Position numbers and translations under genes: made by a program
The notes under the pieces: model-generated
The model's input: the letters and a program-made list of their open reading frames with translations, nothing else
Database searches by the model: none
What the model was told of the DNA's origin: nothing
Assembly: GCF_019551475.1 (NCBI RefSeq)
Contig: NZ_CP047159.1
Coordinates: forward strand, 2,542,001-2,606,000
From: Prevotella sp. Rep29
GTDB lineage: Bacteria; Bacteroidota; Bacteroidia; Bacteroidales; Bacteroidaceae
DNA length: 64,000 nucleotides
Direction: 5' to 3'
Shown here: positions 38,340 to 48,557 of the stretch, piece after piece
Layout of the letters: each line of letters opens with the position of its first letter
How positions within the stretch are numbered: the first letter of the stretch is position 1

Positions 38340-40682
38340 TTAGAAATCAGCCTCGTGGTCGAGCGAGTCGTTGAAGTCGCGCGGCTCACGCTCTTCCATC
38401 GGGTCGTGATAGTTGCGGTTGTCTTCGCGCGTTTCATAACGGTTGAAGTTGTTGTGCGGACGGCGCTCTTCATGATGGCCGTTGCGCTCCGGACGTGGGC
38501 GACGCTCTCCGCGCTCGGGGCGTGGACGGCGTTCGCGCTCAACGTATCCTTCCGGTTTCGGCATGAGCACGCGGTGTGAGAGCTTGTATTTGCCCGTCTT
38601 CGGGTCGATGTCGAGCAGCTTCACCGTAATCTTGTCGCCTTCGTGCAGACCGGCATCTTCCACGGTTTCGAGACGCTTCCAGTCTATTTCGCTGATGTGG
38701 AGCAGTCCGTCTTTGCCCGGCAGTATCTCTACGAAGCAGCCGTAAGGCATGATTGACTGGATGGTGCCCTCATAGACTTCGCCCACTTCGGGTACGGCAA
38801 CGATTGCTTTGATTTTCTTGATGGCTCCGTCGATGGCGTCTTTGTCGGGTGCACTTACCTGCACTTTTCCTACGCCGTCTTCCTCATCGATGACGATGGT
38901 TGAGCCGGTTTCTTCCTGAATCTGCTGGATAATCTTTCCGCCAGGACCGATGACAGCTCCGATGAATTCTTTCGGTATCTCGAATGCCACGATGCGCGGT
39001 ACGTGCGGTTTGAGTTCGGCGCGCGGTTCAGCGATTGCTTCGGTGAGTTTTCCGAGGATATGCTCGCGTCCGGCTTTTGCCTGCATGAGGGCTTTCTCGA
39101 GGATTTCGAACGACAGTCCGTCGCACTTGATGTCCATCTGTGTGGCTGTCAGACCGTCTTTCGTACCTGTTGTCTTGAAGTCCATGTCGCCGAGGTGGTC
39201 CTCATCGCCGAGGATATCGGAGAGGACGGCATATTTCTCTTCGCCCGGATTCTTAATCAATCCCATTGCAATGCCGCTGACGGGCTTTTTCATGGGCACT
39301 CCGGCATCCATCAGTGCGAGTGTTCCGGCGCATACGGTTGCCATCGACGACGAGCCGTTTGACTCGAGAATCTGACTGACGAGGCGCACGGTGTAGGGGA
39401 AATCTGCCGGGATTTGGTCTTTCAGTCCGCGCCAAGCGAGGTGTCCGTGACCGATTTCGCGGCGTCCGACTCCGCGCTGTGCCTTTGCTTCACCCGTGCA
39501 GAACGGCGGGAAGTTGTAGTGGAGCAGGAACTTCATGTAGCTCTTGTCGAGCACGTCGTCGACGAGTTTTTCATCGAGCTTGGTTCCCAAGGTACACGTT
39601 GAGAGACTCTGTGTCTCGCCACGCGTGAAGATAGCGCTTCCGTGGGGCATTGGCAGAGCATCCACTTCGCACCAGATGGGGCGTATCTCGTCGGTCTTGC
39701 GCCCGTCGAGGCGGATTCCTTCGTCGAGGATGCAGCGGCGCATAGCATCGCGCATCACGTCGTGGTAGTATCTTTCAGCCTCAGCATGCTTCTCTTCGAG
39801 TTCCTCATCGGAGAGTTCTGCATGGGCAGCGTCGTACTTCTCGAGGAAGTCGGTGATAATCTTGTCGAATGCTTCCTGACGTGCGTGCTTCTCAAGTGCC
39901 TGCTTGGTCACGTCGTATGCCGGCTGATAGAGTTCGTTGTTGATTTGCTCGCGCAGAGCCTCGTCGTTCACCTCATGGTCATACTCGCGCTTCACGTCGG
40001 TACCGAGTTCGCGACTGAGTTCCTTCTGCAGTTCACACATCGGGCGGATGGCATCCATGGCGGCTTTCAATGCACCGAGCAGGTCTTGTTCAGACACTTC
40101 CTTCATCTCACCTTCCACCATCATGATGTTCTCGGCAGACGCTCCGACCATGATGTCCATGTCGGCTTCTTTCATCTGCTGGAACGTCGGGTTGATGACG
40201 TACTCGCCGTTGACGCGTGCCACGCGCACCTCACTGATGGGGCATTCGAAGGGGATGTCCGAGCAAGCGAGTGCTGCCGATGCGGCAAATCCTGCGAGAG
40301 CGTCCGGCTGGTCAACGCCATCGGCACTGAACAGTATGATGTTTACGTAAACCTCTGCGTGATAGTTTGAGGGAAAGAGCGGTCTGAGCACCCGGTCAAC
40401 GAGCCTTGAGGTAAGGATTTCGTTGTCACTCGGTTTTCCCTCTCGTTTAGTGAATCCTCCTGGGAATCTGCCTGCTGCCGCATACTGTTCGCGGTAATCT
40501 ACCTGCAACGGCATGAAATCTGTTCCCGGAACAGCATCTTTTGCTGCGCATACGGTTGCGAGCAGCACAGTGTTCCCCATTCGAAGCGTTACGCTTCCGT
40601 CGGCTTGTTTAGCCAGTTTTCCTGTTTCAATGGTGATGGTTCTCCCATCAGCCAACTGAATCGTCTTGTTAATAACGTTCAT
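38340..40682 (-). CDS. pnp: Polyribonucleotide nucleotidyltransferase
   Basis: Phosphorolytic 3'-5' exoribonuclease of RNA decay. It has 780 residues: first RNase PH domain, alpha-helical domain, second RNase PH domain ([15 protein letters not shown]...[23 protein letters not shown]), KH domain ([20 protein letters not shown] at ~575) and S1 domain ([29 protein letters not shown]). A ~65-residue tail is unusually rich in Arg, Glu, His and Asn ([15 protein letters not shown], then [11 protein letters not shown]) and looks disordered; it could bind RNA or a partner. Promoter module upstream at 40763-40793. Confidence 0.97.
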
Positions 40683-40747: not shown

Positions 40748-41000
40748 CCGCAAAAAACGCTGCAAAGTTACGAATAAGTGAGGGAAGAACAAAATAAATT
40801 CATTTATTTTTTATTCCGAACGAAAGTAACTTCTTGAAAGTTACGAATAAGTGAGGGAAGAACAAAATAAATTCATTTATTTTTTATTCCGAACGGAAGG
40901 AGTTCCCTTGAGCTGTGCGAAAAACTTCTTAAAAGTTACGAATAAGTGAGCACACTACAAAATAAAAGCTTGTTTCTATTTTTATTGTCGAACGAAAGTC
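40748..41000 (-). repeat. Three tandem copies of the CTCACTTATTCGTAACTTTG promoter module
   Basis: The word GTTACGAATAAGTGAG occurs at about 40767, 40840 and 40934, each followed by an AT-rich palindromic block (ATAAATTCATTTATTTTT type) and CCGAACG / TCGAACG. Only the copy next to pnp has an intact CAAAGTTA. The same module serves gpmI and sufD. Confidence 0.8.
40763..40793 (-). promoter_or_regulatory. Promoter of pnp within a triplicated module
   Basis: On the minus strand TTTG (40793-40790), 19-bp spacer CTCACTTATTCG-type, TAACTTTG (40770-40763). Two further upstream module copies have lost the C of the -7 element. Confidence 0.85.
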
Positions 41001-41157: not shown

Positions 41158-42921
41158 CTATTTCACCACCAGTTTCTTTCCGTTGCGGATATAGACGCCG
41201 GGCTTTGTCGGACGCTTTGAGAGCTTCTGACCTGAAATGGTGTACCACACATTGCTTGCGGTTTGGCTGTCGGCTTCGATGCCACCTACGCCCGTCACTT
41301 TGCCTTTCAGCATGACGGAGAAGGTTTTGGAGAGGTGGTTGAGTCCGTTCCACTCATCATCCACGGCAACGATGGTGCCCTCGATGGTGTCGCCGTCGTT
41401 GTAGCCGTATTGCTGCATGAGTTCGCCGTTGAGTCTCCACTGGAGTGTCATCGGGTTTTCTGCCATGACGAGGGTGCTGTTTTCGTTGCTGAAGGCAATC
41501 CACTGGTCATTGATAAGCACCTCGGCACCTGCGATGAGGAACGCCACGCCGTTGTAGAAATGTTTATTGAGGGGTAGCGTCTCGCCGATCTTGATTTCGG
41601 TGGGCAGTTCCTGCGGCATGTTGTATTTTTTGAATACGCCGGCGGGATTGATCAGCTGGAGAGGCTGAGTTTCTGGCTGATCGATATGTCCATCATCAGT
41701 ATCTACCTGCACTATATCATCAGTATCTCCATCTCAGTTGAGATCAAATCTGATATAGTCGGTCAGCGCAGTAGTTCTCATCCTATCTAACAGAGCATCC
41801 ACATCCTCGATGTCGGCGCCCATCTGGAAGCATAAATCAGCCAAGGCTACATTTACATAGTTTACAAGAGATGTAGCATATTTTCACTTATTGGCAAAAA
41901 CTTGTCAATCGGACGCAGCGCTATATGGGAAGATGCGTCCAGCAAATAATGATTTGTTATGAAATCATATAGGCATTTTGGAAGACTCATATATTTCGTT
42001 AGTTTGGGTAATGTCTCAATCTTTATTTGTTCATATTGTAACCATAACATGGTTGTTTGGATCTTTATTTAATGTTCAATTTGCTGCAGATGAAAGCTCA
42101 TAAACGCCACTATTATCTCAATTAACATCTTCATGATATATCTTATTTTTTAGTATTCGCTCTCAATTTTCATTTTTTTCACTAATATTTGTTCACGCAG
42201 TAAAGATAAGAAAATTTTTGGATCTTGCTAATTGAGATTTTAGATTCTCGCTGTTTTGCGTAAGCCACCAAGCTTTATCGCTTTGTCAGTATACTGAATT
42301 TCAAAAGATATAAATATGATTTGGATTAGCATCCACGCGTTCCTTGATGCTACCCCACCAAGGACTTCATCCATTCTGCACTATAAAATTCGCCTTATCA
42401 TCTATTATAGAGTTTAGAATATTCCATTCATTAGTTGCATGATTACTTGGAGTGGATCCGCTTCATCATATAAACTCATAATTGTCATATCATATAGGCT
42501 CTTCCAGAGTCATACCTGTATGTAGTCTAGACATTAGTTGCTGATACTCCTGTGGTGAGTAGGATCATGCTCAGTACGCTCGCATCATATCTCTAATCTT
42601 GGTAGCCTCAGCGATACCCAGATGCTCTATATGCTCGTATGCCTTTTTATCTCACCATTCAATTTTTTGTCATAAGATAGGTAAGATTTCTCCAGGTTTT
42701 AGAAAATTGATCTGCATGGGAGAGTACGCTTTGGCTTTGTGGATAGTTGAAACGGTCTGGGAACTGATGGTGTCGGGAACCGCTGCCACGGCAACGGGCG
42801 AGCCCGCCATCATCATGGCTGGAACTCACAATAAAACGGCAAGGAACGTCTTTACTCCTTGCTTGAATCAATAAGCGTGGTTCGAAATAACCCTGTCAGG
42901 GCTGGTGTTTTTTCAAGCCAT
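41158..42921 (-). CDS. UGA-recoded S8-like exported protein, copy R1 (open only if UGA is sense)
   Basis: Under the standard code only the last ~190 codons (41158-41733) stay open. Reading on in the same frame, 20 in-frame UGA codons occur between 41734 and 42816 (23 if the ATG at 42921 is used), with no UAA, UAG or frameshift. With UGA = Gly the product has a signal peptide (FKQGVKTFLAVLLG.P.MMMAG), an AT-rich core and a Prevotella C-terminal tail (VWYTISGQKLSKRP...YIRNGKKLVVK). Core motifs are weakly subtilase-like: an HAT(H/N) segment, NFLIFTAGTN, VMVTIGTNKDG and ATSLVNY near the Ser position. UGA at DLN-UGA-DGDTDD faces GGC in copy R2. The frame may be decoded by the nearby tRNA(UCA) or be a transferred remnant. 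Confidence 0.6.
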
Positions 42922-43272
42922 AGGCTGTTTTCCGGTTGTTTCTGTGAGCCTTGTCCGTTTCGCTTGGCGGGCTTTCGAGGGTCAGGAACTGCCCCTTCAG
43001 TGTGTGGAACGACGTCTTCTTTACCCTGTGCCTATCTATGGGCGACAGCCATGCTAACTTGCCTATATATCCCTATACAGCTTAATATAGCACGCTTTTC
43101 ATTCCCCGCCCTTGCACCCGTCGTTTCCCTTGGGGCTTCCTCTTCCACCGTCGCGGGCTGTGAACGCAGATAAACGCTACCCCCGCCGTGGCCTCTTCCG
43201 CACGCTTGCGAGCAGGACTGCTCGGTTGGATATTTTCATTCGGAGAAACTGCAAAAGCGCAATCCTCCGCCA

Positions 43273-43304
43273 CAAAGTTAAGAAATGTTTTCGGAACTGC
43301 CAAA
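43273..43304 (-). promoter_or_regulatory. Host-type promoter of cassette R1
   Basis: On the minus strand TTTG (43304-43301), exactly 20 bp, TAACTTTG (43280-43273). It is identical to the R2 promoter and is a perfect Bacteroidetes promoter, so the UGA-rich gene is under host transcription signals. Confidence 0.85.
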
Positions 43305-43319
43305 ATTTTTCGTCGCTTT

Positions 43320-43468
43320 TTCGTTTTTATTTCACCACCAGTTTCTTTCCATAGGTCTGCCCTACTCATCATCCACGGCAACGATGGTGCCCTCGATGGT
43401 GTCGCCGTCGTTGTAGCCGTATTGCTGCATGAGTTCGCCGTTGAGTCTCCACTGGAGTGTCATCGGGT
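43320..43468 (-). pseudogene. Third, internally deleted cassette remnant
   Basis: The fragment begins with the last codons of the cassette gene (reverse of TTTCACCACCAGTTTCTTTCC) and jumps, after a ~10-bp unrelated joint, to the DDEWNG...LQWRLNGEL region of the same C-terminal domain, ending at a shared GTGTCATCGGG edge. It shows that at least three cassette copies once stood in tandem. Confidence 0.8.
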
Positions 43469-43531
43469 AAAAAAAATGCCAATGTTGGAAGATTTTTAAT
43501 GTGAAACTTGTGTGGTATAATATAAAAACGT

Positions 43532-43539
43532 TACCTTTG
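43532..43539 (+). promoter_or_regulatory. -7 element TACCTTTG of the truncated ATPase gene
   Basis: TACCTTTG lies 45 bp before the ATG at 43584, in unique sequence between two cassette copies. Confidence 0.6.
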
Positions 43540-43583
43540 CATCGTAAAAAGTTGCCAATACTGGCAAAAACATAATGTAAACG

Positions 43584-43700
43584 ATGGAGATAAAAAGAGA
43601 TCGGTATCTAAGACAGCTGATAGAAAGCCGTCAGAATGGATTTATCAAGGTAGTGACGGGAATCCGCAGGTGTGGCAAGTCATATCAATCCCGAATCCTT
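43584..43700 (+). pseudogene. 5' fragment of an AAA+/DUF4143-type ATPase gene
   Basis: About 35 codons read MEIKRDRYLRQLIESRQNGF and then IKVVTGIRRCGKSY, the N-terminus and Walker A (GIRRCGKS) of the common Bacteroidetes ATP-binding protein that carries DUF4143. Homology ends after GKSY, and the cassette R2 terminator begins about 30 bp later. The rest of the gene is gone, so cassette insertion or recombination destroyed it. Confidence 0.85.
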
Positions 43701-43717
43701 AGACCTATAAACCACAA

Positions 43718-43747
43718 AAAAAGCGACCCCGCCGAGGGTCGCTTTTT
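43718..43747 (-). terminator. Terminator of cassette R2
   Basis: AAAAAGCGACCC / GGGTCGCTTTTT hairpin, 6 bp behind the R2 stop codon. Confidence 0.9.
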
Positions 43748-43752
43748 CGTTT

Positions 43753-45510
43753 CTATTTCACCACCAGTTTCTTTCCGTTGCGGATATAGACGCCGGGGGT
43801 TGTAGGACGCTTTGAGAGCTTCTGGCCTGAAATGGTGTACCACACATTGCTTGTTGCGGTTTGGCTGTCGGCTTCGATGCCACCTACGCCCGTCACATTG
43901 CCTTTCAGCATGACGGAGAAGGTTTTGGAGAGGTGGTTCAAGCCGTTCCACTCATCATCCACGGCAACGATGGTGCCCTCGATGGTGTCGCCGTCGCTGT
44001 AGCCGTATTGCTGCATGAGTTCGCCGTTGAGTCTCCACTGGAGCGTCATCGGGTTTTCTGCCATGACGAGGGTGCTGTTTTCGTTGCTGAAGGCAATCCA
44101 CTGACCATTGATAAGCACCTCGGCACCTGCGATGAGGAACGCCACGCCGTTGTAGAAATGTTTATTGAGGGGTAGCGTCTCGCCGATCTTGATTTCGGTG
44201 GGCAGGTCTTGCGGCATGTTGTATTTTTTGAATACGCCGGCGGGATTGATCAGCTGCAGGGGTTGCGATTCGGGCTGCTGGATATTGGAGCCGTCGTCGG
44301 TGGGGACATCTACGATGTCGTCCGTATCGCCATCGCCATTCAGGTCGAGTCTGATATAGTCAGTCAGCGCAGTAGTTCTCATCCTGTCTAACAGAGCATC
44401 CACATCCTCGATGTCGGCGCCCATCTGGAAGCATAGCGACGCCATGGCAACGTTGAGGTAGTTTGGATATGATGTAGTATAGTTTCAAGATTCAGCTACA
44501 ACACTTCAATTAAATGCACTATGATATGGAAAGGCGCGACCGGCAAACAATGCCTGATTATGAAATCATACTGGGAAATTAGATCAGTTATCTTCAGGAG
44601 AAGCGTCTCCATTTTTATTTGTTCATACTGTAACTACAACATGGTTATTCGGATCTTTATTTAATGTTCAATTTGCCGAAGAAGCAAGACTATAAACTCC
44701 ACTTTCATCTCAATTAATATCTCCATGATTAATTTTATTTTTAAATATTCGCTCTCCATTTTCTTTCGTTTCTCAAACATTTGTTCAGGCTGCAAAGATA
44801 AGAAAATTTTTGGATCTTGCTAATTGAGATTTTAGATTCTCCCTGTTACTACTAAGCCACCATGCTTTATCGCCTTCTCAGTATATTGAATTTCAAAAGA
44901 TATAAATATGATTTGGATTAGCATCTACGCGTTCCTTGATGCTACCCCACCAAGGAGTTCACTTATTCTGCACTATAAAATTCGCTTTATCATCGATTAT
45001 AGAGTTTAGAATATTCCATCCATGAGTTGCATGATCACTTGGAGTAGATCCAGATCATCATATAAATTCATAATTATTGTATCATATAGGCTCCTCCCTA
45101 GTCATACCTGTATGCAGTCTAGCCATTAGCTGCTGATACTCCTGTGGTGAGTAGGTTCCTGCTCAGTACGCTCGCATCATATCTCTAATCTTGGTAGCCT
45201 CAGCGATACCCAGATGCTCTATATGTTCGTATGCTTTTTTATCTCCAGCTTCTATCTGTCCCACTATAGGAAGAATGTCAGCAGGTTTTAGAAAATTGAG
45301 CTGCATAGGGGAGTACGCTTTGGCTTTGTGGATAGTTGAAACGGTCTGGGAACTGATGGTGTCGGGAACCGCTGCCACGGCAACAGGCGAGCCCGCCATC
45401 ATCATGACTGGAACTCACAATAAAACGGCAAGGAACGTCTTTACTCCTTGCTTAAATCAATCAACGTGGTTCGAAATAACCCTGTCAGGGTTGGTGTTTT
45501 TTCAAGCCAT
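43753..45510 (-). CDS. UGA-recoded S8-like exported protein, copy R2 (open only if UGA is sense)
   Basis: Under the standard code two separate open stretches remain (43753-44445 and 45163-45405), both in the same frame. Between them only UGA interrupts: 16 times, never UAA or UAG (19 counting from the ATG at 45510). As Gly, UGA fills expected positions: LAVLLG in the signal peptide, NFLIFAAGTN (compare the subtilase AAGN oxyanion motif), VVVTVGTNKNG and NFPVGFHN. Possible catalytic segments are DHATHGWN (His) and GNYTTSYPNY (Ser), both degenerate. The tail is an EF-hand/dockerin-like LDLNGDGDTDDI plus a ~170-residue domain ending YIRNGKKLVVK, a type IX-like signal. The core is AT-rich; the ends look host-like. 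Confidence 0.62.
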
Positions 45511-45862
45511 AGGCTGTTTTCCGGTTGTTTCTGTGAGCCTTGTCCGTTTCGCTTGGCAGGCTTCGTGAGGGTCAGGAGCTGCCCCTTCAGTGTATGGAAC
45601 GACGTCTTCTTTACCCTGTGCCTATCTATGGGCGACAGCCATGCTAACTTGCCTATATATCCCTATACAGCTTAATATAGCACGCTTTTCATTCCCCGCC
45701 CTTGCACCCGTCGTTTCCCTTGGGGCTTCCTCTTCCACCGTCGCGGGCTGTGAACGCAGATAAACGCTACCCCCGCCGTGGCCTCTTCCGCACACTTGCG
45801 AGCAGGACTGCTCGGTTGGATATTTTCATTCGGAGAAACTGCAAAAACACAATTCTCCGCCA
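45511..45862 (-). other. Conserved transcribed leader of cassette R2
   Basis: About 350 nt between promoter and gene, almost identical to 42922-43272 in R1. GC-rich with several short open frames (for example one ending TLTGLFRTTLIDLSKE that overlaps the gene start) and a hairpin GCAAGGA...TCCTTGC at about 45430-45452 near the gene start. Such strong conservation suggests a functional leader RNA or leader peptide. No known riboswitch is recognised. Confidence 0.55.
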
Positions 45863-45894
45863 CAAAGTTAAGAAATGTTTTCGGAACTGCCAAA
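45863..45894 (-). promoter_or_regulatory. Host-type promoter of cassette R2
   Basis: On the minus strand TTTG (45894-45891), 20-bp spacer, TAACTTTG (45870-45863), identical to the R1 promoter. Confidence 0.85.
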
Positions 45895-46012: not shown

Positions 46013-47080
46013 ATGATGGAAAATCTAAAGTCGTTGTACGAGCAGTGGATGGCTCTCCAACCACTCGAAGAGCGCAAAAGATATTTGTTGAGTCAGCGTT
46101 TTACGATTGACTATAACTACAACAGCAACCACATTGAGGGCAACACGCTGACCTACGGGCAGACGGAGCTGCTGCTGCTCTTCGGCAGGGTGAGCGGCGA
46201 GGGCGAACTGCGCGACTTCGACGAGATGAAGGCGAGCCAGGTGGGCTTGAAGATGATGACCGAGGAGGCGACGACGGGAAAAATGCCGCTGACGCAGAAC
46301 TTCATCCGCCAGCTGCACAAGACGCTCTTACGCGAAGACTACACCGTGTATCGGAACCTGCCCGGCGGCATGTACACCAGCTTCGTGATTCATGCAGGTC
46401 AGTACAAGACGCGCCCCAACAGCGTCATCACGCGCTATGGCGACCGTTTCGAATATGCCTCGCCCGAGGAGACACCGACGATGATGACCGAGCTCGTGGA
46501 CTGGTACAACGAGGCGGAGCAGTCGGGGAAATACACGCCCGTGGAGCTGGCTGCCCTGTTCCACTACCGCTACATCCGCATCCACCCCTTTGAGGACGGC
46601 AACGGGCGCATTGCCCGCCTGATGGTGAACTACATTCTGGCTCGCCACGACTGGCCGATGATTGTGGTGAGAAGCCGGAAGAAAAGCGAGTATCTGGAAG
46701 CGCTGCACCGCAGCGATCTTATCGTGGGAAGTAATCCTTCGAAAGGAGCTGCTGCAACACTGACCGACATTCGGCATTTCTTTAAATTCTTTGTATCTAT
46801 CGTTGCATCGGAGTTGAAATATAACATCGAATTTGCGAACGAACAATCGCCCGACGTGTGGTGGCACGATGGCGAACGCATTGCATTCAGGAGTGACTCT
46901 ACTGCCAAACTGCTTCAGGCTATGAATTTGGAGCCGGAGATAACGATTGAACAGTTAAGTGCGGTAGCAAACATCAATACGGCAGCCGTAAAAAAACAGC
47001 TTCGGCAGATGACTCAAAAAGGCTACATTCAGCGGCGCGAGAATGGCGACTGGCACGTGTTTGCCACGTCGTCGGTTTAG
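46013..47080 (+). CDS. Fic-domain protein (class II, self-inhibited)
   Basis: A 355-residue Fic protein, a family that usually transfers AMP from ATP to protein hydroxyls. The catalytic loop HPFEDGNGRIARL is complete (His near residue 192). An N-terminal inhibitory helix motif S-x-x-x-E-G is present (NSNHIEGNTL, residues ~37-45), as in class II Fic proteins. The flap region precedes the core, and the C-terminal ~60 residues form a winged-helix-like DNA-binding segment (EQLSAVANINTAAVKKQLRQM). It sits between the UGA-rich cassettes and the unusual tRNA genes; whether it belongs functionally is unknown. Start ATG 46013 or 46016. Confidence 0.92.
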   Translation: MMENLKSLYEQWMALQPLEERKRYLLSQRFTIDYNYNSNHIEGNTLTYGQTELLLLFGRVSGEGELRDFDEMKASQVGLKMMTEEATTGKMPLTQNFIRQLHKTLLREDYTVYRNLPGGMYTSFVIHAGQYKTRPNSVITRYGDRFEYASPEETPTMMTELVDWYNEAEQSGKYTPVELAALFHYRYIRIHPFEDGNGRIARLMVNYILARHDWPMIVVRSRKKSEYLEALHRSDLIVGSNPSKGAAATLTDIRHFFKFFVSIVASELKYNIEFANEQSPDVWWHDGERIAFRSDSTAKLLQAMNLEPEITIEQLSAVANINTAAVKKQLRQMTQKGYIQRRENGDWHVFATSSV

Positions 47081-47205: not shown

Positions 47206-47243
47206 GGGGGGGGGGGTAAGATTTACATTTATTATTACCTTTG
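47206..47243 (+). promoter_or_regulatory. Promoter of the tRNA pair with G11 tract at the -33 position
   Basis: A run of 11 G (47206-47216) is followed 19 bp later by the -7 element TACCTTTG (47236-47243). The first tRNA starts 17 bp after it. The place where TTTG would be expected (20 bp before the -7) lies inside the G run. Slippage would change spacing and could switch the tRNAs on or off. Confidence 0.6.
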
Positions 47244-47259
47244 CACCCGAAAGATAGAA

Positions 47260-47351
47260 GCGGGTGTAGTGTAACGGCAGCACGCAAGATTTCAGATCTT
47301 GATCGGCGTACCTCCAGTGCGCAGGCGCGGGTTCGACTCCCGTCACCCGCT
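47260..47351 (+). tRNA. UGA-decoding tRNA, anticodon UCA, tRNA-Gly-like acceptor, long variable hairpin
   Basis: A complete cloverleaf of 92 nt. Acceptor GCGGGTG / CACCCGC (7 bp), discriminator U73; D-arm GTG / CAC with loop TAACGGCAG; anticodon stem CAAGA / TCTTG with loop TTTCAGA, giving anticodon UCA; T-arm GCGGG-TTCGACT-CCCGT. G1-C72, C2-G71, G3-C70 and U73 are bacterial glycine identity elements, and the 5' half resembles tRNA-Gly(CCC). Unlike tRNA-Gly it has a 25-nt variable region with a 6-bp hairpin (GCGTAC / GTGCGC) between two 4-nt spacers. It is not selC: the acceptor and D-arm do not fit. CCA is not encoded. Confidence 0.85.
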
Positions 47352-47540
47352 CAAGAACCCACCCCCGAAGGGGAAGGGAGTATAAATTGTCAAATAGTCA
47401 AATCAGATTACGGGCTTAGTGTAACGGCAGCACACAGGTTTTCGGGGCCTGACGTTCGGTTTCCAACCCGACTGAGGCGGTTCGATTCCGCCAGCCCGTG
47501 CAACAGCTCCCCCCAACCTCCCCCCGAAGGGGAGGAGTGA
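47352..47540. repeat. C-rich palindromes behind each tRNA gene
   Basis: CCCACCCCCGAAGGGGAAGG follows the first tRNA and ACCTCCCCCCGAAGGGGAGG the second. They belong to the family found behind gyrB, the FAH gene and porV, suggesting a 3'-end or processing role. Confidence 0.65.
47410..47500 (+). tRNA. tRNA with anticodon UCG (reads CGA/CGG), long variable hairpin
   Basis: A 91-nt cloverleaf: acceptor ACGGGCT / AGCCCGT, discriminator G73, a D-arm identical to the preceding tRNA (TAGTGTAACGGCAGCAC), anticodon stem CAGGT / GCCTG with loop TTTCGGG, giving anticodon UCG, and T-arm GGCGG-TTCGATT-CCGCC. It again has a ~24-nt variable region with a TCGG-TT / AA-CCCGA hairpin. A1-U72 with G73 recalls tRNA-Trp (also tRNA-Gln) rather than a clear tRNA-Arg. 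The charged amino acid is therefore uncertain. Co-transcription with the UCA tRNA is likely (58-bp gap). Confidence 0.8.
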
Positions 47541-47576: not shown

Positions 47577-48557
47577 ATGCAGCAGCCTAATCCGAAAGAC
47601 AATTTCAAGCGCTGGGACGACCCGTTGTACAACGATCTGCGGCGCATTTTCTCACGTGTGAAACTGCGCGAGGTGATGACGCACAGCTCCTTCTACGAGC
47701 AGGAGGGGAAAGGCAACAGCCGCCTTGTGTTTGCCGGAATGTATGTGTTTCGGGGGCAGGTGGCTGAAGTGCTCTTCCGCTATGCCACGGGCGAGGGCAC
47801 GCGCTTGCAACACCTGCTCGGAAATATGTTTCGCAACGAGCGATTGGAGAGGATGTTCGACGAATGGCGGCTCTGGCAGTTTGCCCGCGCAGGCGAGAAA
47901 TTTGATATCAGCAAACACAAACACATCTTTATATATGCCCTTTTCGGCTACGTATCGACCTTGGACGAAGACCTGCGGCAGTGGTTCATCGGGAAATATC
48001 TTCTGACCGAGTCGGAACATCTTTTCAAGCATCGCCGGCGCAACCTCGACCTGCTGGCGCAAGCCAACGACATGCTGAAACAGGCTGACGACAGACAACT
48101 CACGCTGGAAATGGAGGTGACCGAAGAGGGGATGAACAAGGCGAAGGTGATGCTTTCAGACGGCACGGTGTTGTGTGAGGCTGAGAGCAAGAGCTGGCGC
48201 TACGCCCGACAGAAAGCCACGAAGCTGGCACTGAACCTGTTGGCTATGCCTGCCAGAAAATATATACTCTCCAATCCAGAGTACCATGCCCGCGTGTTGG
48301 CTCGTGAAGAGGAAAAACGTGCCGCCCGCAAGGCTGAAATTGAAGCCCGCGATGCTGCCAAAAAAGAAGAGCGCCTCAAAAAGAAAGAAGAGCGCAAGGT
48401 GCAGGCACGCATCCGCGATGCGAAACGCAGAGAAAGCCAGGCTGCAGCGAAAATCAGGAAGGCTGAGAATGCCCGCCGCGCCGCCATCAAGGCAGCAAAG
48501 GAGGCTCGCCCGATGAGTGCCAACAAGCGTCGTTACTTAGAAGACAAGAAAAAATAG
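47577..48557 (+). CDS. RNase III-fold / dsRBD-like protein lacking catalytic acids
   Basis: The N-terminal ~150 residues line up with RNase III: LREVMTHSSF, then NSRLVFAGMYVF where the enzyme has NERLEFLGDAVL, and TRLQHLLGNMFRNERLERM. The two catalytic acids of the signature are replaced by Val and Met, so it is probably inactive. A dsRBD-like segment follows (VMLSDGTVLCEAESKSWRYARQKATKLALNLL), then a ~90-residue K/E/A/R-rich helical tail. I chose ATG 47577; an in-frame TTG at 47544 would add 11 residues. It lies just behind the unusual tRNAs. A role in dsRNA or tRNA binding is inference. Confidence 0.65.
   Translation: MQQPNPKDNFKRWDDPLYNDLRRIFSRVKLREVMTHSSFYEQEGKGNSRLVFAGMYVFRGQVAEVLFRYATGEGTRLQHLLGNMFRNERLERMFDEWRLWQFARAGEKFDISKHKHIFIYALFGYVSTLDEDLRQWFIGKYLLTESEHLFKHRRRNLDLLAQANDMLKQADDRQLTLEMEVTEEGMNKAKVMLSDGTVLCEAESKSWRYARQKATKLALNLLAMPARKYILSNPEYHARVLAREEEKRAARKAEIEARDAAKKEERLKKKEERKVQARIRDAKRRESQAAAKIRKAENARRAAIKAAKEARPMSANKRRYLEDKKK

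Follow-up and report, generated by a model that had tools for sequence, protein, structure and literature searches.

The window analysed here is a stretch of 64,000 nucleotides from the genome of Prevotella sp. Rep29 (contig NZ_CP047159.1, positions 2,542,001 to 2,606,000), which carries a compact gene set that would likely allow two of its genes to be translated by another genetic code. The set comprises two related cargo genes (R1 and R2), a structured leader RNA in front of each, two tRNA genes with a long variable arm (class II) and a gene for an RNase III-like protein (RN3). All of these lie within 7.4 kb, with ordinary host genes on either side. A preliminary description of this DNA had proposed that UGA encodes Gly in the two cargo genes and that decoding is possibly local; the tRNA genes, the leader RNA, RN3 and the CGA codons that face Trp were absent from it.

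R1 (43753–45510, minus strand) encodes 585 amino acids and includes 19 UGA and two CGA codons. It consists of a signal region, a subtilisin-like core and a C-terminal domain with similarity to the C-terminal domains of numerous ordinary-code host proteins. R2 (41158–42921, minus strand) encodes 587 amino acids, includes 23 UGA and two CGA codons and is 86% identical to R1. With translation table 25 both frames run open from ATG to a TAG stop, as their reported lack of internal UAA and UAG codons implied. Seventeen UGA positions are common to the two genes; the six found exclusively in R2 lie opposite GGA (five) or GGC (one), and the two exclusive to R1 lie opposite AGT and TCT. The preliminary description gave 20 and 16 UGA codons, 14 of them shared, with the six unshared ones facing Gly codons. 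These numbers are reproduced when three N-terminal UGA codons common to both copies are dropped, provided that its R1 is the 41158–42921 copy.

The two genes are under purifying selection. Over codons 61–400 the ratio of non-synonymous to synonymous substitution rates (dN/dS) between them is 0.25 with UGA as Gly and 0.30 with UGA as Trp, and their differences are distributed 60/25/86 over the first, second and third codon positions; the frames are therefore constrained, in line with what had been proposed for them. The dN/dS of the core also rules out that R1 and R2 are pseudogenes. There are 28 matches to R2 in the genome, and R1 and R2 alone among them hold TGA; a TAG is found in one short remnant. 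The remnant is a decayed third copy of the cargo, at 43361–43465 on the minus strand between the R2 leader and R1, which retains a piece of the C-terminus (97% identity across 35 residues) in a frame with one TAG.

Protein relatives of the cargo are present in public databases. Of 250 relatives 120 were listed, and the first 79 were aligned. In 72 of these Trp stands at several of the R2 UGA columns, as if the genes had been called with translation table 4, and the remaining seven have Gly there. At least 17 Trp residues are found in 91 of the 120 listed homologues. It seems that the public predictions of this family were called with the wrong code, which placed Trp where Gly belongs. We read the Trp of these homologues as an artefact of table 4 because of the DNA of the fetched loci and because no informative column in the codon alignment described below has Trp.

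The DNA of 24 loci, taken from species genomes, was also compared. Sixteen belong to Bacteroidales or Bacteroidia and have in-frame TGA (their best matches contain 5–26, and at most one TAA or TAG), four have no TGA (L059, L060, L068 and L071) and four appear to be of Absconditabacteria type (L056, L064, L072 and L073). TGA, CGA and CGG were masked as X in the codon alignment, and the reference was composed of 19 proteins and the four loci taken as ordinary-code. A column was considered informative if it had a 60% consensus residue, and scoring covered 23 recoded genes, or segments of such genes, from Bacteroidales. TGA occurs at 230 informative columns, where the consensus is Gly in 210, Ser, Glu and Ala in four each, Leu in three, Pro and Tyr in two each, Cys in one and Trp in none; a further 117 TGA positions have no 60% consensus. 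The proposed reading of UGA as Gly is borne out by these columns, which together with the DNA of the fetched loci rule out UGA as Trp.

The same alignment gives a meaning to a sense codon. CGA occurs at 22 informative columns, with Trp at 14, Gly at three, Arg and Val at two each and Ser at one, and at 18 further positions without a consensus. In 14 RN3 genes CGA falls at 32 columns with Arg at 23, Lys at eight, Glu at one and Trp at none, and CGG at 79 columns with Arg at 64 and Trp at none. Comparison of the Trp and Arg counts at CGA between cargo and RN3 gives a Fisher probability of 8e-9, a value that is too small since the gene copies are related. CGA mostly corresponds to Trp in the cargo and to Arg in RN3; decoding is either message-specific or time-dependent. 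An excerpt of a published study (PMC8629427) describes the Absconditabacteria (SR1) code as one in which UGA encodes Gly and both CGA and CGG encode Trp, through anticodons UCA and UCG. The codon meanings here are the same, as are both anticodons.

The host itself keeps the ordinary code. The gene for release factor 2 (RF2), prfB, is present in the window's genome (453 bits against a cut-off of 370), and RF2 exceeds the curated cut-off in 14 of the 16 Bacteroidales genomes with recoded genes, the window's genome included. We took 25 open reading frames of the window as ordinary genes, among them RN3 and a Fic-domain gene; they end in TAA (13), TGA (seven) or TAG (five), and CGA or CGG makes up 181 of their 722 Arg codons (25%). 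That host genes stop at UGA, as had been stated, is thereby upheld. Organisms in which UGA is Gly throughout the genome lack RF2 and do not use UGA as an ordinary stop; neither trait is found in the window's genome.

Two accounts of a message-specific or time-dependent code have to be weighed. We consider it probable, from comparison of the loci, that the set is a leader-marked, self-decoding module, through which chosen mRNAs are read in the Absconditabacteria code while elsewhere UGA remains a stop and CGA encodes Arg. The main rival to such reading of marked mRNAs is a global code switch, in which timed expression of the tRNAs would make the reading of UGA and CGA ambiguous on all mRNAs, the leader would be an ordinary regulator and RN3 a processing or ribosome factor. 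This is possible, though we think it rather unlikely. It has a parallel in phages of ordinary-code hosts, for which suppressor tRNAs and in-frame stops in late genes are described in an excerpt of PMC10746230. A general switch should be costly because UGA stops seven of the 25 ordinary open reading frames and CGA or CGG accounts for a quarter of their Arg codons.

The two tRNA genes would suit these two codons. The first (47260–47351, plus strand) has the anticodon UCA, the pairs G1:C72, C2:G71 and G3:C70, and U73, and is a predicted tRNA-Gly reading UGA. The second (47410–47500, plus strand) has the anticodon UCG, the pair A1:U72, G73 and C20, and is a predicted tRNA-Trp reading CGA and possibly CGG. 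According to the part of PMC8629427 that deals with tRNA identity, tRNA-Gly(UCA) is expected to have G1:C72, C2:G71, G3:C70 and U73, and tRNA-Trp(UCG) to have G73, a nucleotide other than A at 20 and A/G1:U72. By reading of the alignments, the Gly rules hold for the UCA tRNA of the window and for 10 others, and the Trp rules hold for the UCG tRNA of the window; in the remaining UCG tRNAs of the alignment the first pair is G1:U72, position 73 is G and position 20 is C or U. The set of UCA tRNAs has 99.7% of cells paired and two-sided changes in six pairs, which is matched by none of 500 shuffles. A third class II tRNA, with the anticodon CCG, lies beside recoded genes in two other loci (L063:1820–1911 and L141:1922–2013) and has G1:U72, G73 and A20.

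A box TACCTTTG is found at 47236–47243 on the plus strand, 24 nt upstream of the first tRNA. It belongs to the pattern TAnnTTTG, which we take to be the Bacteroidota -7 promoter consensus and which in 13 of 15 loci precedes the UCA tRNA by 16–26 nt (the chance expectation was not computed). That the tRNA genes mostly have a promoter-type box of their own favours a timed, global switch.

The combination of a UCA anticodon and a long variable arm is that expected of a selenocysteine tRNA, and ARAGORN labels the UCA tRNA in this way. Insertion of selenocysteine at UGA is nevertheless a reading to which we give practically no credence. A selA gene above the cut-off is found in none of 18 carriers (six have weak matches) and in one of 14 named control genomes. 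The UCA tRNAs have U73, an acceptor stem of 7 bp and a T stem of 5 bp, and the UGA columns are Gly columns, with Cys once. In our view the selA result, the build of the tRNA and the UGA columns refute selenocysteine.

In front of R1 and of R2, downstream of a promoter-like box, lies a structured leader RNA of about 200 nt, which is conserved before the recoded genes of other carriers. The leader of R1 is at 45540–45880 (minus strand; 3' domain 45617–45708), with a TAACTTTG box of the Bacteroidota -7 type upstream of it at 45863–45870 on the same strand. The leader of R2 is at 42951–43289 (minus strand; 3' domain 43027–43118), with a TAACTTTG box upstream at 43273–43280, also on the minus strand. 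The full alignment has two-sided covariation in 17 of 38 pairs. In the 3' domain two-sided change is seen in 11 of 25 pairs and 28 cells, a level reached in none of 500 shuffles. Searches against Rfam gave weak and unconvincing matches only, also at a permissive threshold.

The leader is not restricted to one type of cargo. It precedes the cargo of L136, in which no similarity to R2 was detected, and the recoded genes of L063/L140 and L141 which, like that of L136, are not clearly relatives of R1 and R2. A global switch fails to explain one leader before dissimilar cargo.

A UGA codon lies very close to the start of these genes. In both R1 and R2 it is codon 3 (ATG GCT TGA; 45502–45504 and 42913–42915, respectively, minus strand). 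Of 17 leader-bearing genes, 16 have UGA as their third or fourth codon, with the start ATG 85–106 nt past the leader, in a count for which the starts were located by searching for the ATG-then-UGA pattern itself. If each gene is instead started at the earliest ATG of its longest frame, 11 of 16 have UGA at codon 3 or 4. A rough calculation puts the chance of the early-UGA pattern, within 190 nt and in frame with the cargo, at about 0.03 per gene. By eye, the early UGA is mostly followed by a signal-peptide-like stretch. Of the 91 Trp-rich database homologues (17 Trp or more), 15 start with M-x-W or M-x-x-W, which we read as the same early UGA called with table 4; many other Trp-rich homologues apparently have internal starts or another type of N-terminus. 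The early UGA, too, is left unexplained by a global switch.

RN3 (47577–48557, plus strand) adjoins the tRNA genes on the same strand. It encodes 326 amino acids without an in-frame UGA and appears to contain a degenerate RNase III-like domain, a domain resembling a double-stranded RNA-binding domain (dsRBD) and a long basic helix; the protein is a predicted RNA binder. In Pfam it has weak RNase III and dsRBD matches below the cut-off (Ribonucleas_3_3, 26.8 bits against a cut-off of 35). A low-confidence structural model gives fold matches to RNase III and dsRBD proteins, including the mitoribosomal protein mL44. By reading, the stretch R-x-(V/I)-F-A-G-M is found in 14 RN3 homologues, apparently without the acidic residues of the catalytic RNase III motif. 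A sequence search of the PDB returned weak matches, in most of which the basic tail was paired with ribosomal protein L24 of eukaryotes, and these were not used. No match to RN3 was found in plasmid and phage records (INPHARED for the phages).

The set, whole or partial, was seen in 19 Bacteroidales genomes. Class II tRNAs of this type are present in 13 of the 16 Bacteroidales genomes with recoded genes, a count that leaves out a single match of 49.8 bits in G307. They were found in none of four Bacteroidales genomes with ordinary-code copies only and in none of three Absconditabacteria-like genomes. The leader is present in 16 of 18 carriers (the match in G307 is partial) and in none of 12 other genomes; in G305, where it was missed, the contig seems to end within the leader (L138, a weak match). 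RN3 is found in six of eight carriers and in none of 27 others, with no match in 20 genomes of the same genus, in the four Bacteroidales with ordinary-code copies or in the three Absconditabacteria-like genomes. In each of the 16 genomes in which the UCA tRNA was seen, RN3 adjoins it. In G307, for which no class II tRNA was counted, RN3 begins 99 nt from the end of the contig.

The prevalence of the set is low. A protein search for the cargo in 301 genomes of the family, with E values up to 1e-40, matched only the window's genome. The class II tRNAs occur in four of 399 genomes of the family, which are the window's genome, G378 (judged from coordinates, the source of L051), G139 and G195. The last two gave no match in the cargo search of 301 genomes, and their fetched tRNA contigs do not include the R1/R2 cargo family. 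A blind search of 393 genomes of the order with the leader alone gave two matches, to the window's genome and to G482, a member of another family. The contig of G482 is 8344 nt long and contains tRNA-UCG, tRNA-UCA, the leader, an RN3 homologue with 48% identity and an open reading frame whose fourth codon is UGA.

Judged by title, metagenome assemblies make up most of the other carriers, and an assembly error or contamination with Absconditabacteria DNA might be suspected. We regard this as very improbable. The window's genome is a complete single contig of 2.73 Mb with 99.62% completeness, in which the set sits amid ordinary host genes, and similar sets occur in many separate assemblies, the Bacteroidales loci having 43–53% GC.

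The cargo model (R2 copy; predicted local distance difference test, pLDDT, 82; predicted TM-score, pTM, 0.79) shows a subtilisin fold over residues ~74–437. The fold matches include a toxin subunit that is tied with many other subtilases, so they are taken to indicate a shared fold only. H161, N245 and S351 are invariant across the aligned cargo and the position of the catalytic Asp looks like Asn or His, from a reading of motifs only. The cargo sequence had no match in Pfam, NCBIfam or the sequences of the PDB, nor in the IMG/VR viral records.

The low-GC loci L056, L064, L072 and L073 come from three genomes of 1.1–1.2 Mb (G301–G303) and have TGA-rich frames across the loci. None of the three genomes has RF2 over the cut-off. 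Two have a release-factor match below the cut-off, itself with 13–14 TGA, which we read as RF1, and the third has no match. These genomes appear to be Absconditabacteria-like and seemingly use this code throughout. In the cargo tree their copies are found among the recoded Bacteroidales copies (four changes, at least three of them forced by well-supported branches), and the ordinary-code copies are mostly apart (two changes). The interleaving suggests that the cargo was probably transferred between the Bacteroidales and Absconditabacteria groups more than once. One Absconditabacteria-like copy (L056:10001–11524) ends in the type of C-terminal domain that is found in the Bacteroidales copies, which hints at transfer from Bacteroidales in that case. 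Moderate support for an association of Absconditabacteria with Bacteroidetes in microbial mats is given in an excerpt of a co-occurrence study (PMC8406219). The cargo comprises subtilisin-like proteins of secreted type and others, and our guess is that it acts in contact between the two groups.

Horizontal acquisition of a coding region with UGA as Gly had been proposed in the preliminary description. What stands of this claim is that the low-GC genomes have the same code and members of the same cargo family. Arrival of a simple Absconditabacteria gene is too little to account for the locus, as the class II tRNAs, RN3 and the leader were found in Bacteroidales only. A rival account is that the cargo was passively acquired from Absconditabacteria and is inefficiently decoded or decaying. 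This would agree with the family and code shared with three TGA-rich genomes of low GC, among whose copies those of Bacteroidales interleave. We consider it improbable, given the dN/dS of 0.25 in the core, the lack of detected tRNAs of this type, leader and RN3 in the three Absconditabacteria-like genomes and the covariation of both RNAs. The suggestion of local decoding has gained from the finding of tRNA genes, RN3 and leader RNA nearby.

How a leader-marked module might work can be outlined from its parts. Enzymes of the host itself would attach Gly to the UCA tRNA and Trp to the UCG tRNA. The dsRBD-like domain of RN3 perhaps binds the leader. The leader would mark the mRNA or its ribosome, and on this marked mRNA or ribosome the class II tRNAs would outcompete RF2 and tRNA-Arg. 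The UGA at codon 3 or 4 would serve as a checkpoint, at which unmarked ribosomes abort after two or three codons. Two codes would thus be kept in one cell message by message, with the leader and the pseudo-RNase III assigning the ribosome, the class II tRNAs delivering the amino acids and the early UGA checking the outcome; we give this more specific scheme roughly an even chance.

Several findings weigh against a leader-marked module of this kind. In the assemblies of G309 and G314, which are perhaps incomplete, recoded genes are present but neither class II tRNAs nor RN3 were found. The UCA tRNA occurs alone in G304, G310 and G311, and despite this CGA codons are found in L058 (from G310), where the codon faces Trp, and in L061 (from G311). 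The A20 of the CCG tRNA in L063 breaks the identity rule for Trp. Later genes in tandem have no leader of their own (L053b, L055a, L070a, L061a and L061c), L070 is the exception without a start-proximal UGA, and the starts of the other leader-bearing genes were chosen by the pattern itself. Residues other than the expected ones occupy 20 of the 230 informative UGA columns and eight of the 22 informative CGA columns, in gene copies whose relatedness means that the counts are not independent events, and one TAG or TAA lies inside the matched span of L061a and of L062. The model of the N-terminal half of RN3 has low confidence (mean pLDDT 62.6, pTM 0.36). The RN3 match is split into two pieces in L074 and L139, where the gene may be broken or misassembled.

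The module can be compared with known systems. In Absconditabacteria the code is genome-wide, whereas here it is confined to a few genes of an ordinary-code host with RF2. The UCA tRNA of an Absconditabacteria-like genome (L083, the only one seen) is a class I tRNA of 74 nt, in contrast to the class II tRNA of the module. Phage code switching, as described in PMC10746230, likewise involves a gene set that supplies a stop-codon tRNA of its own, but the module adds reassignment of a sense codon, a leader RNA and RN3. Viral records gave no match to either of the two tRNA patterns (IMG/VR), as for the cargo in that database and for RN3 in INPHARED; the leader was not searched there.

The proposed logic of the module resembles selenocysteine insertion directed by the selenocysteine insertion sequence (SECIS), if this were extended to a whole reading frame. 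In the excerpt of PMC7609411, an RNA signal in the message redefines UGA for chosen mRNAs. Both systems, that of SECIS, SelB and tRNA-Sec and that of the module, combine a signal in the mRNA with a long-armed UCA tRNA. They differ in that the module would insert Gly, is found without selA over the cut-off, has its leader before the gene, would affect the whole frame and would include CGA.

RN3 has an arrangement of RNase III and dsRBD domains similar to that of the RNase III family and mL44, as far as the fold match of its low-confidence model goes; it differs from RNase III in that, by reading, the 14 homologues apparently lack the acidic catalytic motif, and in its additional long basic helix. 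Allo-tRNAs and selC* tRNAs have unusual cloverleaves with a long variable arm and a non-standard anticodon. The tRNAs of the module are similar in both arm and anticodon, but have stems of 7 and 5 bp instead of the 8/4 or 9/3 of allo-tRNAs, and elements for Gly and Trp instead of Ser or Cys.

No description of such a module was found in open-licence papers, a collection outside which most subscription papers and bioRxiv preprints lie. To our knowledge codon reassignment is treated as a trait of whole genomes, organelles or phages, whereas redefinition of the SECIS type is treated as a matter of a single codon. If the proposed reading is true, a whole frame, including a sense codon, would be read in a second code on selected mRNAs of an ordinary-code cell. 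The coexistence and separation of two codes in one cytoplasm would then be directly testable. The tRNAs, the leader and the candidate adaptor would be natural parts for orthogonal translation, and the module would suggest a route by which genes pass between organisms with different codes.

The remaining features of the locus concern its neighbourhood. A Fic-domain gene with a winged-helix C-terminus (46013–47080, plus strand) lies between the cargo and the tRNAs, and is present in no other fetched carrier locus. A PNPase gene is found near the cassette both in the window (38340–40682) and in L074 (L074:1–1335), on opposite sides of the cassette; chance, a shared locus or an insertion preference are candidate causes of this proximity. 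By eye, a stretch of about 60 nt (gttacgaataagtgag...) at 40770–40960 is repeated between PNPase and R2. Between the R2 promoter and the 3' end of R1, at ~43583–43720 on the plus strand, the DNA resembles the 5' part of an ATPase gene (by eye; no search was made), and this stretch enters the terminator region of R1, as if it had been cut by R1 or by a duplication.

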